From Actinoallomurus spadix (lineage in GTDB: Bacteria > Actinomycetota > Actinomycetes > Streptosporangiales > Streptosporangiaceae), in contig NZ_JAMXMX010000018.1 of NCBI RefSeq assembly GCF_024055725.1, positions 1 through 64,000 of the forward strand: 64,000 nucleotides of DNA, in the 5' to 3' direction. The notes under the pieces were generated by a model. The model was not told the origin of the DNA, ran no database searches, and worked only from the letters and a program-made list of their open reading frames with translations. The translations under genes were made by a program, and so were the position numbers. Shown one piece after another: positions 42,729 to 47,798 of the stretch (its first letter is position 1; the number at the start of each line of letters is the position of its first letter).

Positions 42729-43742
42729 TCAGGCGGGCTCGACGGCGTCGATCTCGGCGAGGATCGCCCGCTTGCGCCCCTCGCTCAGGAAGGACGCGCG
42801 GACGCCGTTACGGGCCAGGTCCGCGAGCTCCTTGCGGCCGAGCCCCAGGTCCCGCGCCGCGACGCGGTACTCATTGGTCAGCGTCGTGCCGAACATCGGC
42901 GGGTCGTCGCTGTTCAGCGTCACGTACAGGCCCTCGGCCAGCATGCGGGGGAGCGGATGCGCGGCGATGTCCGGCACCTGCTTGGTGCAGACGTTCGAGG
43001 TCGGGCACACCTCCAGCGGCAGCCGCGTCTCCCGCAGGTACGCCACCAGCTCCGGGTCGTCGAGGCAGCTGATCCCGTGCCCGATCCGCTCGGCCTTCAG
43101 CTCCCGGATCGCCTCCCAGATCGTCTCCGGACCGGTCATCTCCCCGGCATGCGGCACGCTGTGCAGCCCGGCCGCGACCGCCGTTCGGAACGCGTCCCGG
43201 ATCGACTGCTGGTGCGAGAGCCGATCCTGCTCGACCCCGCCGATGCCGAAGCCGACGAGCCTCTCCGGCGGGTGGTTCAGCGCGTGGTCGAGGGTCCCGC
43301 GGTCCGCGTCCTCCCCGAATTCGCCGGGGATGTCGAAGACGTAGGCCACCTCGATCCGGTCCGCCACCTCCCGGGCCGCGAGGTCCAGCGCCTCGGTCAC
43401 GGCCGGCATCGTCATCCCCACCGACACGTGGGAGTACGGCGTGACGGTCAGCTCGACGTACCGGACGTTCTGCGCGGCCAGGTCCCGGGCCACCCCGGTG
43501 ACCAGCGTCGCGACGTCCTCCGGCTCCCGGACGAGGCCGTTGACCGCGAAGTAGACCTCGGCGAAGTGTGGGAAGTCGCGGAACTCGAAGAACTCCCGCA
43601 GCGCCGCCTCGCTCGTCGGCACGTTGTGGCCGGAGTGCCGGCGGGCCAGCTCCAGCACGGTGGGTACGGAGGCCGAACCGACCAGATGAACGTGAAGTTC
43701 GGCCTTGGGCAGCGCGTCGATGAAGTCGTCGGTAACGGTCAT
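42729..43742 (-). CDS. add: Adenosine deaminase
   Basis: 337 residues, the usual length. Zinc ligands H17 and H19 are in 'KAELHVHLVGSAS'. 'GLHSVPHAGEMTG' provides the next His and catalytic Glu, 'ERIGHGISCLDDPEL' the base His, and 'TLNSDDPPMFGTTL' the final Asp ligand. It should convert adenosine to inosine in purine salvage; aminofutalosine deaminases have a similar plan and cannot be fully excluded. It follows a small membrane protein gene on the same strand after 81 bases. Its 3' end is 7 bases from the convergent monooxygenase gene. Confidence 0.9.
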   Translation of the reverse strand: MTVTDDFIDALPKAELHVHLVGSASVPTVLELARRHSGHNVPTSEAALREFFEFRDFPHFAEVYFAVNGLVREPEDVATLVTGVARDLAAQNVRYVELTVTPYSHVSVGMTMPAVTEALDLAAREVADRIEVAYVFDIPGEFGEDADRGTLDHALNHPPERLVGFGIGGVEQDRLSHQQSIRDAFRTAVAAGLHSVPHAGEMTGPETIWEAIRELKAERIGHGISCLDDPELVAYLRETRLPLEVCPTSNVCTKQVPDIAAHPLPRMLAEGLYVTLNSDDPPMFGTTLTNEYRVAARDLGLGRKELADLARNGVRASFLSEGRKRAILAEIDAVEPA

Positions 43743-43823
43743 GGCGGCGAAGCTAACAGCGCCGGATCGCCCCGAGCCAGAGAAATCCGCCGAACCTGAC
43801 GCGGATTGGTCAAGTTTCGCGCG

Positions 43824-44213
43824 TCACCAGCGCAGCAGCCAGGCGAGGACGCGGCCCGCGACGAGGTAGACACCGGCGGCGAACAGCCAGTTCTCCGTCA
43901 ACTGCTTGCGCGCGTCGTCGTTGCGGAACACGTCGTCGAACGGGGACGCCAGCCAGGTGCCGGCCCGCATCACGCCGTGCACCACGTTGTTGGCCTGGTT
44001 GGCGCCGCCCCAGGTGAGCGCGATGCCGAACAGCAGGACGAGTGTGATGGTCCAGGCGGCCAGCCACACGAACGCGCTGAGCCCGTCGTGCCGCTGGAAC
44101 CGCCGGACACGCGTGGTGTCCCATCGCCGGGTCCGGGCGCCGCTCACCGCCCCGGCCGGGGCCGTCGTCTCCGCCGCCGATTCACGCCGGCGCCGCCATA
44201 TCTGCGTGGCCAT
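43824..44213 (-). CDS. Small two-helix membrane protein
   Basis: 129 residues, ATG 44213 with GGAGG upstream. A basic N-terminal tail (about 1-45) is followed by a helix at about 46-68 (FVWLAAWTITLVLLFGIALTW) and a second near 108-127 (WLFAAGVYLVAGRVLAWLL). Between them is 'GGANQANNVVHGVMRAGTWLASPFDDVF', a pattern I have seen in actinobacterial envelope proteins with no known function. It lies upstream of add on the same strand. Confidence 0.8.
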   Translation of the reverse strand: MATQIWRRRRESAAETTAPAGAVSGARTRRWDTTRVRRFQRHDGLSAFVWLAAWTITLVLLFGIALTWGGANQANNVVHGVMRAGTWLASPFDDVFRNDDARKQLTENWLFAAGVYLVAGRVLAWLLRW

Positions 44214-44397
44214 CTGTTCCTCCTCAGAGGCCCGTCTTTTGACGGAGTTGTCCCTCAGAGAAAAGCCACTAAACGGTCACTTCCCGTAATCGCCTGCGGC
44301 GCTCAGCGCCACCTGGCATGGTGAGCAGCCGAAATCGAAGGTCAGTTCGCCCTCGACCTGCGGAAGGAGAGAGGCGCTTCGCGCGGAGGAGGGCGCG

Positions 44398-44967
44398 TTG
44401 TCCTGGTCCGCTTTCGTCGACGAGTCCGAGTCCAACCGCAAACTCGACCCCGACGTCTACATCCTCGCCGCGTCGATCATTTCCGCCGACTCGTGCGAGG
44501 CGGTGCGAGACGCCGTCCGCCGATTTAGGCTACCTGGCCAGCGAAAGGTGCACTGGCGTGACGAGTCGGAAAAGCGGCGACGATGGCTGGCTGAGGCGGT
44601 CGCCTCTCTCGATGCGTTGCACCTCGTCGTAGTGAGGCGGGGCTACGTCGGCGAGCCCTCGGAACGCCGCAGGCGTAAGACCAGGGAGCGGCTGCTGTTC
44701 GAGTTGTCCGCAATGGGCGTGCACGGAATGTTGATGGAAGGCAGGGAGGCTAAGCAGAACCGCCATGATCTGTCGCTTGTCAGAGCGCTGCGCGCGCGCA
44801 AGGAAGTACCCTCGGGCTTTCGGGTCGACCACGCCTTCGGCTCGGAAGAGCCTCTTCTCTGGCTACCGGATGTCGTCGCCGGCTCGGTAGTGGCTGCGCG
44901 ATGCGGCGATCCGTGCCACCTTGCCTCACTCATGCCGCTCGTGACCATCTGCATGATCGAAGCTTAG
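44398..44967 (+). CDS. DUF3800-like protein (RNase H-fold)
   Basis: 189 residues. TTG 44398 is the start, supported by a GGAGGAGGG tract just upstream. 'SAFVDESES' (4-12) provides the first acidic pair of DUF3800. 'KVHWRDESEKRRRW' (about 49-62) follows, then the late 'LLWLPDVVAGSVVAA' (about 153-167), equivalent to the typical L-P/A-D-x-x-A-G motif. DUF3800 proteins have an RNase H-like fold and are suspected nucleases. Weinberg and colleagues (2017) described several RNA motifs next to such genes. Directly after this stop is a set of hairpins that could be such an RNA. Function is unproven. Confidence 0.72.
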   Translation: MSWSAFVDESESNRKLDPDVYILAASIISADSCEAVRDAVRRFRLPGQRKVHWRDESEKRRRWLAEAVASLDALHLVVVRRGYVGEPSERRRRKTRERLLFELSAMGVHGMLMEGREAKQNRHDLSLVRALRARKEVPSGFRVDHAFGSEEPLLWLPDVVAGSVVAARCGDPCHLASLMPLVTICMIEA

Positions 44968-44977
44968 AAAGACGCAA

Positions 44978-45079
44978 GCCCGGGACCCCGTCGTCCGGCG
45001 GGAACTTCCCGGGCCCACTTCCTACCGCTTCGCAAAGCGGCGGCCTTGTCGCTTAGTGTGCCTCGCTCACTGCGAAGCG
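44978..45079 (+). ncRNA. Candidate structured RNA downstream of DUF3800 gene
   Basis: It begins 10 bases after the stop codon. Stem P1 has GCCCGGGA (44978-44985) with TCCCGGGC (45007-45014) and an inner CCCG/CGGG pairing. P2 is CCGCTT/AAGCGG (45025-45040) with a CGCA loop. P3 is CGCTT-AGTG with CACT-GCG-AAGCG (45050-45079). In addition, CGCTTCGCA (45026-45034) is fully complementary to TGCGAAGCG (45071-45079), a pairing that excludes P2 and P3, so the RNA could switch. Terminator-only function of P1 is the main alternative. Confidence 0.5.
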
Positions 45080-45127
45080 TCAACCAGATGGGAGAACTCA
45101 CACCTCCCGCCGGGCGGATCGGGATCA

Positions 45128-45153
45128 CTGTGACGCCGGTGACGACGTCACAG
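45128..45153. terminator. Hairpin before convergent enoyl-CoA hydratase end
   Basis: CTGTGACG and CGTCACAG, perfect 8-base arms, flank a 10-base loop. It lies 84 bases from the end of the minus-strand hydratase gene and could terminate either that gene or the RNA transcript on the plus strand. Confidence 0.45.
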
Positions 45154-45236
45154 ATCCGGCGAACCGGTCGCCGTTCGTCGACATCGACGGCAACGAGACG
45201 ACGGTGGCGGCAACCTGGCCGTGGCGGTCGAGGCTC

Positions 45237-46049
45237 TCATTCGCCGGTGAAGACGGCGGGGCGCTTCTCCTTGAAGGCGCGGGCGCCCTCCTTGGCGTCG
45301 GCGGAGCCGATGACCGGCCAGCCGAGCTCGTCGGAGATCTTCAGTGCGTCGGCCTCGGGCAGGCCCTCGGTCCTGCGGCAGGTCTCCAGGATCGCCTGGA
45401 CGGCGAGGGGGCCGCAGGCGGCGATCTGGTCGGCGATCTCGCGGGCGGTCGCGAGCGCCCGGCCGTCCGGGACGATCCGGTTGATCAGGCCCATCCGCAG
45501 CGCCTCCTCCGGAGTGACGGACCGGCCGGTGAGCAGGATGTCCATCGCGAAGGCGTACGGAATCTGGCGGGGGAGCCGGATCGCGCTGCCGCCCATGGGG
45601 AACAGGCCGCGTCTCGCCTCGTACAGCCCGAGGGTCGCGCCCTCCGCGACGACGCGGAGGTCGGTGCCGACCAGCAGCTCGGTCCCGCCGGCCACCGCGT
45701 ACCCCTCGATCGCGCTGATCAGCGGTTTCTTCGGCCGGCAGGCGCGCAGGAGGCCCTTCCAGTGGAAGTCCTGGATCTCGGCCGCCCGCCGCCGTACCCG
45801 CTCGTTATCCGACGGCCGGCCCATGGCCTTCAGGTCGGCGCCCGCGCAGAACTGCCCGTCGGCCCCCGTGAGGATGGCGACCCGCACCTCCGGGGTATCG
45901 GAGACGTAGGCCCACGCGTCGGCCATGCCGACGAGCATGTCGGTGCTGAGGGCGTTGCGGGCCTCGGGCCGGTTCATGGTGACGATGACGACGTGGCCGT
46001 CCCGCTCGACCGTGCAGTGCGGGGTGCTGATGGGCAGGCGTTCCGCCAT
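45237..46049 (-). CDS. Enoyl-CoA hydratase (crotonase family)
   Basis: 270 residues. The crotonase fold shows 'VVIVTMNRPEARNALS' (about 20-35) and 'FCAGADLKAMG' (about 67-77), whose Ala-Gly-Ala-Asp-Leu forms the oxyanion loop. 'GYAVAGGTELLVGTDL' and 'LGLYEARRGLFPMGG' carry the two glutamates expected for hydratase activity. It should hydrate a 2-enoyl-CoA in beta-oxidation. It is divergent from a fadD gene, like echA19/fadD19 of M. tuberculosis, but orthology is not proven. Two degenerate KstR-type sites lie in the 171-base gap. Confidence 0.88.
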   Translation of the reverse strand: MAERLPISTPHCTVERDGHVVIVTMNRPEARNALSTDMLVGMADAWAYVSDTPEVRVAILTGADGQFCAGADLKAMGRPSDNERVRRRAAEIQDFHWKGLLRACRPKKPLISAIEGYAVAGGTELLVGTDLRVVAEGATLGLYEARRGLFPMGGSAIRLPRQIPYAFAMDILLTGRSVTPEEALRMGLINRIVPDGRALATAREIADQIAACGPLAVQAILETCRRTEGLPEADALKISDELGWPVIGSADAKEGARAFKEKRPAVFTGE

Positions 46050-46099
46050 GGCCGTCCTCCCTGCTCGCGGCCGCGCACGCTGTCACGCGACGCCGAAAC

Positions 46100-46168
46100 A
46101 AGAACGGATTCTAGTAATGTTCATCGCATCCGAACAGGGGTTGTCGACCAAAACGAGAACGTGATCTA
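46100..46168. promoter_or_regulatory. Two degenerate KstR-type sites between divergent lipid genes
   Basis: AAGAACGGATTCTA (46100-46113) and GAGAACGTGATCTA (46155-46168) each match six of the eight fixed positions of TnnAACnnGTTnnA and keep the AGAAC half. They lie between the divergent hydratase and FadD genes. Alone they would be weak evidence; the exact sites elsewhere in the window make them more credible. Confidence 0.42.
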
Positions 46169-46220
46169 CTGCGAGCGGAACCTCCGTACGACCGATGCCG
46201 AGACGTACAGGGAGTAGTCC

Positions 46221-47798
46221 ATGGGCTCGTTGGGCTTTTGGCGGCTGGCGGAGCAGAACCCCGACTGGGTCGCGGCCGTGGACCCGGACGGGACGGAGTA
46301 CCGCGCGGCGGACCTGCTCGTCCGCTGCAACCGGGTCGTCCACGGGCTGCGCGACCTCGGGCTCGAGCCGGGCGACGGCATCTGCGGGCTCGTGCCCAAC
46401 GGCGTCGACGGCCTCGTCCTCTACCTCGCAGCGTTGCAGGCGGGCTGGTACTACACGCCGATCAACTGGCACCTGACCGGCCCGGAGATCGGTTACATCG
46501 TCGCGGACAGCGAGGCCAAGGCGTTCTTCGTGCACGAGCGGTACGCCGCGGAGGGCGCCCGGGGCGCGGAGGAGGCGGGGCTCGATCCGCGGCGGCGGTT
46601 TTCGCTCGTGCCGGAGACGCGGAATGGGCGCCGTGGCGAGGTGCCGGGATTCCGGGACTTCGGCGAGCTGGTCGCCGGGCGGCCGGACACGCTCCCGCCG
46701 GACCGTACGAACGGCGCGACCATGCACTACACGTCGGGGACCACGGGCCGGCCCAAGGGGGTCCGCCGTCCGCTGGCCGGGATCGACCCGGACGACAGCG
46801 CGGAGCTGATGACGTTCCTGCTGACGTTCTTCGGCTTCACGCCGGGCCCGCCGAACGCGCACCTCGTCACCTCGCCGAACTACCACACGGCGGTCACGCA
46901 GTTCGGCGGGTCGGCGCTGCACATGGGGCACACGCTCGTCTACATGGACAAGTGGGACGCAGAGGAGGCGCTGCGCCTCATCGAGCGGTACCGGATCACG
47001 AACACGCACATGGTGCCGACCCACTTCAAGCGCCTGCTGTCGCTGCCCGAGGAGGTGCGCAAGCGGTACGACGTCTCGTCGATGCGGTGGGCGATCCACG
47101 CCGCGGCGCCCTGCCCGGTGCCGCTCAAACGGGCGATGCTCGACTGGTGGGGCGACTGCGTCTGGGAGTACTACGCGGCCACCGAGGGCGGCGGCACGAT
47201 CGCGAGCCCCCAGGAGTGGCGCGAGCACCCCGGCACCGTCGGCCGGGCCTGGCCGATCAGTGAGCTGCTGATCGTCGACGACGACGGCAACGAGGTCCCC
47301 CCGGGCACCCCCGGCACCATCTACATGAAGATGGCGAGCACCTCGTTCGAGTACAAGGGCGATCCGGCGAAGACGCGGGCGAACCGGCTCGACGACTACT
47401 TCACCGTCGGCGACGTCGGTCATCTCACCGAGGACGGGTTCCTGTTCCTGTCCGACCGCAAGGCCGACCTGATCATCTCGGGTGGGGCGAACATCTACCC
47501 CGCCGAGATCGAGAACGAGATCATCGTCCATCCCAAGGTCGCCGACGTCGCCGTCTTCGGTGTCCCGGACGATGAGTGGGGCGAGCAGATCAAGGCCGTC
47601 GTCGAGCCCGCGGAGGGCGTGCCGCCGGGGCCGGAGCTGGCCGAGGAGATCCTCGCCTCCCTGGACGGGCGGCTCGCCCGGATGAAGTGGCCGCGCTCGT
47701 TCGACTTCATCGAGCGAATGCCCCGCGAACCCAACGGCAAGCTCCTCAAACGCAAACTGCGGGACCCATATTGGAAGGACCGCCAGAATGCCATCTGA
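46221..47798 (+). CDS. Fatty-acyl-CoA synthetase (FadD-like)
   Basis: 525 residues. The AMP-binding P-loop is 'MHYTSGTTGRPKGVRRPL' (about 168-185), followed by 'YYAATEGGGTIAS' (about 317-329, the A5 motif), 'YFTVGDVGHLTEDGFLFLSDRKADLIISGG' (A7-A8), and 'PREPNGKLLKRKL', with the catalytic Lys of A10. It should activate an acid as acyl-AMP, then acyl-CoA. The acid is unknown; context suggests a steroid or complex lipid intermediate. It is the first gene of a five-gene operon with a DUF35 protein, two lipid-transfer proteins and a second FadD. The next gene starts 11 bases inside its 3' end. Confidence 0.9.
   Translation: MGSLGFWRLAEQNPDWVAAVDPDGTEYRAADLLVRCNRVVHGLRDLGLEPGDGICGLVPNGVDGLVLYLAALQAGWYYTPINWHLTGPEIGYIVADSEAKAFFVHERYAAEGARGAEEAGLDPRRRFSLVPETRNGRRGEVPGFRDFGELVAGRPDTLPPDRTNGATMHYTSGTTGRPKGVRRPLAGIDPDDSAELMTFLLTFFGFTPGPPNAHLVTSPNYHTAVTQFGGSALHMGHTLVYMDKWDAEEALRLIERYRITNTHMVPTHFKRLLSLPEEVRKRYDVSSMRWAIHAAAPCPVPLKRAMLDWWGDCVWEYYAATEGGGTIASPQEWREHPGTVGRAWPISELLIVDDDGNEVPPGTPGTIYMKMASTSFEYKGDPAKTRANRLDDYFTVGDVGHLTEDGFLFLSDRKADLIISGGANIYPAEIENEIIVHPKVADVAVFGVPDDEWGEQIKAVVEPAEGVPPGPELAEEILASLDGRLARMKWPRSFDFIERMPREPNGKLLKRKLRDPYWKDRQNAI

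Follow-up and report, generated by a model that had tools for sequence, protein, structure and literature searches.

Conserved RNA motifs beside DUF3800 genes, numbered I to XI, were reportedly described by Weinberg et al. in 2017, and to our knowledge the function of DUF3800-associated RNAs has been open since then. In type III toxin-antitoxin systems, the antitoxin RNA sits upstream of the toxin gene. Passages of PMC8860590 describe ToxIN, a system of this type, as a protein toxin to which a non-coding RNA binds, and type III antitoxins as consisting of multiple repeats. Passages of PMC12373285 describe the AbiF toxin as neutralised by its RNA through direct interaction, both in cis and in trans. 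DUF3800-I and DUF3800-IX are given as RF02969 and RF02968, respectively, in a passage of PMC11701678. The DUF3800 domain itself is described as an RNase H fold reported near putative ncRNAs and within Cas12a2 loci (excerpts of PMC10910872), and DUF3800 with an RNase H fold is also reported from VI-F and V-A2 loci (excerpts of PMC12669027).

The window, i.e., the whole stretch of 64,000 nucleotides from Actinoallomurus spadix analysed here, contains a DUF3800-related gene followed by a structured element (Table 1). At gathering score, Rfam gave no matches in the window. At permissive E, no Rfam DUF3800 family was hit in 44250-45300 or in 36 further homologue or array loci; no other Rfam family reached its gathering score over the element in these loci either, and the matches that did appear were sub-threshold and chance-like. 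Membership of an Rfam DUF3800 RNA family, which a sequence-only reading of this DNA had raised, was thus not borne out in the window or in its relatives. The DUF3800-I model gave no matches in 119 genomes, in which the control was equally silent. The entries listed by literature searches contained no description of this gene-RNA pair. We file the pair as a new variety among the DUF3800-associated RNAs, on a comparison with the 2017 motifs made only via Rfam.

The DUF3800-related gene and the element behind it

Table 1 Features of the gene and of the element downstream of it in the window.
Feature	Position	Strand	Basis or remark
DUF3800-related protein gene	44398-44967	+	TTG start, 189 aa; ORF listing, homologue comparison, and AlphaFold2
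Structured RNA/element, ~117 nt	44969-45085	+	Core 44969-45045 is the model match; 3′ end inferred
P1, two nested helices	Outer 44978-44984/45008-45014; inner 44987-44992/44997-45002	+	Covariation
Conserved CCCACUUCC, unpaired after first base	45014-45022	+	Alignments A4 and A5
P2 hairpin	45025-45030/45035-45040, then CGGCC	+	Covariation
3′ motif GUCAACC	45079-45085	+	Motif count after core
9-bp alternative pairing	45026-45034 with 45071-45079	+	Present in window, not conserved

DUF3800 (PF12686) was the sole Pfam relation of the 189-aa protein, with a score of 16 bits (E 0.02) against a curated cut-off of 21 bits; the gene, earlier called DUF3800-like, is therefore related to this domain at a score below the cut-off. 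At E ≤ 1, PF12686 matched 18 of 25 family members, the best at 2.2e-4 (these are E-values alone, and single members could pass 21 bits), and at E ≤ 0.1 it matched none of 10 distant members. The PADLOC model RT-DUF3800_VII-A1, which we take to be that of retron type VII, matched 3 of the 25 members weakly (best E 0.009). A profile comparison between the family and the canonical DUF3800 protein of the window genome gave a probability of 0.2, and an NCBIfam search with the protein returned nothing useful. The third-position GC was 0.77 in the gene and 0.96 in the neighbouring ECH gene. Comparing CUCACUUCC with the gene leader for complementarity gave no result of use.

Invariant residues across 25 homologues include D8, E9, S10, R37, H52, W53, R90, and R92, as well as E114, R116, D124, W155, D158, and G162. 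The AlphaFold2 model of the protein (pLDDT 93.7, pTM 0.90) has strands and helices in the order b-b-a-a-b-a-b-a-b-a-a-b. This order, together with the invariant acidic residues D8, E114, D124, and D158, points to an RNase H-like fold. Because a PDB sequence search with the protein gave no credible match (best E 0.15), we infer the fold from the model and these residues only, helped by the statements of an RNase H fold for DUF3800 in excerpts of PMC10910872 and PMC12669027.

The element begins one nucleotide past the stop codon of the gene. The 133-nt stretch 44968-45100 folds at -57.2 kcal/mol, and shuffled sequences fold at a mean of -46.2 kcal/mol (z -3.14; 1 of 200 shuffles equals the native value), which, together with the open reading frame, bears out the earlier placement of a gene and then a structured element at 44398-45079. 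P1 is followed by no U-run, and across 43500-46300 a terminator scan gave a single site (1.1 expected), at 44839-44852 inside the gene. These results rule out P1 as a simple intrinsic terminator, the case that the sequence-only reading had itself named as refuting. Of the three hairpins that it proposed, P1 and P2 are conserved and a conserved third hairpin is not established, a possible one being seen only by eye in E-type relatives. The alternative pairing that it proposed is exact and occurred in 0 of 200 shuffles, yet it is private to the window: in 39 other gene-adjacent RNAs, the longest match of this kind was 7. We therefore rejected a conserved switch built on this pairing, which is absent from all 39 relatives.

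In the relatives, the parts follow one another as a GCG-rich start, P1, an unpaired CACUUCC, P2, a GGC-rich stretch, and often a GUCAAC-like 3′ motif; conserved among these are P1, P2, the unpaired CACUUCC, and the downstream GUCAAC motif. A covariance model, R1, was built from 22 sequences of the window's family. It detected one copy in the window, at 73.8 bits (E 4.7e-17), and recovered two of three held-out F-type loci (L022, E 6.7e-6; L027, E 5.0e-5; not L016). Weak R1 matches of 24-33 bits at L156, L164, L170, L175, L181, and L183 had the look of plain hairpins and were treated as false. In alignment A4 (81 distinct rows, among them those used in training), two-sided changes were present at 15 of 17 pairs, with a score of 0.402 against 0.128 for shuffled alignments. 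In A5 (27 distinct rows, none from training), two-sided changes were present at 14 of 17 pairs, with a score of 0.436 against 0.155 for shuffled alignments and 0.101 for the best of the slid registers. Both alignments lean towards structure, since both were fitted to the R1 model. The helices of P1 and P2 covary, a point on which the sequence-only reading had proposed to check homologues.

Among the distinct alignment rows, 68 of 81 in A4 and 19 of 27 in A5 have the unpaired CACUUC. At 45015-45022, the window reads CCACUUCC. Many relatives, such as L007, have UCACUUCC, which is one base off UCACCUCC, presumably the anti-Shine-Dalgarno stretch of 16S rRNA; this likeness may be due to chance. 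The pattern GUCA[AC][CG] occurred within 85 nt past the core at 33 of 58 loci hand-picked from 89 R1 matches, at 28-34 nt in 29 of the 33, and in a control stretch at 5 of 58. When 14 pairs of related loci were compared, homology of gene and RNA ended between +116 and +134, counted from the start of the core, in seven pairs from four groups, ended at +173 in one, and continued beyond +320 in six. Moreover, L058 and L059 differ by a tandem duplication with a unit of 116 bp. From these stops of homology, the 116-bp unit, the 3′ motif, and the conserved core beside a variable flank, the RNA is estimated at ~117 nt, and its 3′ end is approximate. G-U and A-C wobbles numbered 45 and 48 in A4 and 26 and 19 in A5, and since these counts do not discriminate, they leave the strand undecided. 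We assume that the element acts as a sense-strand RNA.

Pairing of gene and element across genomes

Protein searches detected homologues in 53 of the 200 family genomes and in 78 of the 297 order genomes, and the element followed the gene or gene remains in all of the first 30 loci inspected by eye. In the 200-genome family sample, every full-length gene had the RNA (51/51), which was detected by the genome scan in 46 cases, by a focused search in three (L027, L203, and L215), and by eye in two (L016 and L235); the split between full and partial genes was set by hand from homologue listings. Among 40 more loci of the family and order (L200-L239), 36 had an R1 match at E ≤ 6.5e-4 and L235 had the element by eye, while no convincing R1 match was obtained at L227 and L234, which have long ORFs, and none at L239, which has a partial gene. 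The focused R1 search covered 37 of these 40 loci, L227, L234, and L239 being left out for want of a good match.

A first scan of named genomes found no relatives. When named genomes were searched by protein alone, with the D-type L018 protein as the query, 40 loci were obtained in Nonomuraea, Streptosporangium, Planobispora, Microlunatus, Nocardioides, Microbacterium, Promicromonospora, Atopobiaceae, Eggerthellaceae, and others. An R1 match (E ≤ 3.3e-5) lay within ~125 nt behind the protein match at all 40. Fifteen of them, from Nonomuraea and its near relatives, are close to the training set, and the other 25 are more distant; no full gene can be read at two of the 40, L259 and L279. The gap from the end of the protein match to the start of the element was 5-77 nt in 46 of 52 cases and 124-443 nt in the other six. 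In a phylum-wide sample, R1 matches occurred in 8 of 296 genomes.

Homologues of the L023 protein were present in 24 plasmid records, 15 of them conjugative, from Clavibacter (15), Mycobacterium (6), Arthrobacter (2), and Pseudarthrobacter (1). In the one conjugative plasmid that was inspected among these records, the RNA lies 1 nt past the stop codon of the gene. Phage records gave no match to the L023 protein, and neither a strict pattern scan nor an L023 protein scan of viral contigs found relatives.

Eighteen orthologue pairs were used to compare conservation along the locus. Identity was 78-100% in the core, 55-100% in the next 40 nt, and 13-97% in the flank; in 16 of the 18 pairs, conservation of the core equalled or exceeded that of the gene, and the flank was the least conserved part in all 18. 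The pairing of gene and RNA is well supported. The protein-RNA module proposed from the sequence agrees with these results, in that the gene-adjacent element is conserved and shows covariation.

Elements without a gene and the history of their loci

In the family sample, 132 R1 matches at E ≤ 1e-3 were obtained in 59 genomes. Of the 119 matches with at least 33 bits, 51 had a full gene beside them, 21 had a partial one, and 47 had no gene within 500 nt, the last number including later members of arrays. Conversely, 6 of 25 partial genes were without an RNA match in the genome scan. Another match on the same strand lay within 3.5 kb for 29 of the 132 matches, and tandem copies are present in some relatives. 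The window genome has few and divergent copies: besides the window copy at 73.8 bits, there is one without a gene (43.1 bits; G000:C8:112595-112667), another that follows a broken gene (36.7 bits; G000:C16:120253-120327), and a doubtful one of 22.1 bits. Further copies are located behind genes of other kinds, among them TetR, NYN, and PIN; at L171 and L173, PIN-like, VapC-like genes end 10 and 44 nt before the gene-less elements (assigned by Pfam for L171 and by eye for L173).

The gene-less RNA of one locus pair, G186 and G065, was compared with its surroundings. The cores are 92% identical (69/75) and the adjoining TetR genes 90% (271/300), whereas identity is 0.40 in the 3′ domain and 0.41 in the flank, for which 30 shuffles of the flank gave a mean of 0.32 and a maximum of 0.41. 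P2 shows one compensated base pair and the loss of another. Thus, in this one locus pair, conservation of the gene-less RNA is on a par with that of the adjoining coding gene, unlike that of the flank.

To follow the loci, the window locus was compared via ECH orthologues in eight genomes, and the TetR locus, in another genus, via orthologues in 15 genomes. In the genus of the window, G091 retains gene and RNA, and G052 has the RNA alone. G166 (L140) has only the start of the gene, separated from ECH by ~8.5 kb of other sequence, and neither gene nor RNA was found next to ECH in G176, G152, G115, and G135. At the TetR locus, gene and RNA are present in G139, gene remains and RNA in G243 and G193, gene remains without RNA in G238, G155, and G232, and RNA without a gene in G186, G065, and G097 (weak in G097, 30.8 bits; remains in G193, G155, and G232 were recognised by eye). 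In the other six of the 15 genomes, neither was found at this locus. No clean empty site with a target duplication was found at the ECH and TetR loci; clean insertion of a mobile element was accordingly dropped for both, which show gene loss and divergent flanks instead. In several locus pairs, indels of ~200-650 bp are located exactly at the 3′ end of the RNA, and the extra segments past the RNA look by eye like ordinary sequence, not like cassettes that end in an element.

A hot spot common to seven genomes (L095, L096, L101, L102, L160, L166, and L167) lies between genes for a DruE-like helicase and a type IIG restriction-methylase. Its content varies, with elements and DUF3800-like, NYN, small acidic MSDDEPIDYEAVRRRFPWVG, and ribbon-helix-helix genes, and L166 has a single element. 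We dropped an assignment of the hot spot to DISARM, since on pieces of L095 the PADLOC matches point rather to a DruE-like helicase of Druantia (E 4.3e-47) and to a restriction-methylase of type IIG (E 2.5e-55). By eye, a different two-hairpin element that ends near UGUCAA directly follows an NYN gene at L101 and L160; the NYN domain of the L101 protein was detected by Pfam (E 3.6e-10). L095 and L096 contain a stretch that by eye resembles this NYN-linked element, with no NYN gene directly before it. Also by eye, promoter-like sequence and the start GTGCTTACC are alike before E-type genes (e.g., L061) and before the NYN gene of L160.

Candidate mechanisms and known systems

The observations made here are the tight pairing, the covarying structure, the approximate ends of the RNA, the gene-less and tandem copies, and one conserved gene-less case. 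The reading that we favour for them, to which we give close to an even chance, is an RNA-antitoxin module of a type III-like kind, in which the RNA would restrain an RNase H-like nuclease. The gene would yield a small predicted nuclease related to DUF3800, presumably toxic when free. The RNA behind it would fold into P1 and P2, exposing the CACUUCC strand and carrying the 3′ GUCAAC motif, and would bind the protein directly and hold it inactive. Stress or phage infection may then disturb the RNA and release the protein, giving the module a putative anti-phage role. In the family sample, the full gene never stands without the RNA while the RNA stands alone and multiplies, which fits an RNA antitoxin, and AbiF/RCd22, as described in passages of PMC12373285, is a tested precedent. 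Against inhibition, the window has a single RNA, placed downstream of the gene, unlike the repeats of type III antitoxins; moreover, gene-less RNA could reflect plain decay, because the gene is the larger target. More tentatively, with the balance somewhat against it, the pairs may form a new class of RNA antitoxins, a ~117-nt downstream RNA with an RNase H-like nuclease, across Actinomycetota and conjugative plasmids, in which gene-less copies would provide trans-acting immunity and the NYN-nuclease/RNA pair would follow the same logic.

The RNA could instead activate the protein, as a scaffold like the omega RNA of TnpB/IscB in an RNA-dependent, possibly guided, nuclease. A nuclease-like protein with an RNA immediately 3′ of its gene would suit this, as would the presence of the RNA at every full gene of the family sample and the reports, in excerpts of PMC10910872 and PMC12669027, of DUF3800 near putative ncRNAs and in Cas12a2, VI-F, and V-A2 loci. 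However, the 18 orthologue pairs have no hypervariable segment within the RNA, which rules out a guide there and leaves the RNA-guided nuclease of the sequence-only reading without positive support, whereas its RNA-inhibited nuclease appears to be the best reading. A guide of the TnpB type would start just where the variable flank starts, and is therefore indistinguishable from it; this part of the flank varies in each of the 18 pairs, as a guide would. A scaffold explains a lone RNA less easily, and the gene-less RNA is conserved in the one pair measured. On balance, we consider activation unlikely.

Two further explanations dispense with a separate RNA partner. An element that mostly begins 5-77 nt past the protein match might be a 3′-UTR structure serving autoregulation, mRNA stability, or termination; the missing U-run, the copies in arrays and without a gene, and the conservation of unpaired stretches besides the helices speak against it and make it quite improbable. 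Least probable, we think, is a DNA site, either a folded recombination site or an element end (integron attC-like or REP-like) with the protein as recombinase or transposase. It would account for the hot spot with its variable sets of elements and genes, for the copies behind TetR, NYN, PIN, and other genes, for the undecided strand, and for the indels at the 3′ end of the RNA, but not readily for the few and divergent copies in the window genome, the two loci without a clean empty site, or the ordinary look of the segments past the RNA.

The protein family, the RNA with approximate ends, the covariance model, and the gene-less and tandem variants together delimit the pair, which allows a direct test of inhibitor versus activator. 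If the RNA is an inhibitor, RNA antitoxins would extend to a new nuclease fold.

As with the DUF3800 motifs, of which DUF3800-I is 115 positions long, a structured RNA stands beside a DUF3800-type gene here; unlike them, the element is missed by the Rfam DUF3800 models, and its protein is a sub-threshold DUF3800. The protein shares a DUF3800-type domain with RT-DUF3800_VII-A1, as judged by weak matches. With ToxIN, it is the tandem RNA copies of some relatives that are alike, whereas the window RNA is a lone downstream copy, and family searches gave no ToxIN match. AbiF differs in being a HEPN protein whose RNA, with two motifs, is upstream of the gene; as AbiF/RCd22 (abiF motif RF03085) is described in the passages of PMC12373285, it resembles the present pair in that a conserved RNA motif stands beside a protein, which in the case of AbiF is toxic.
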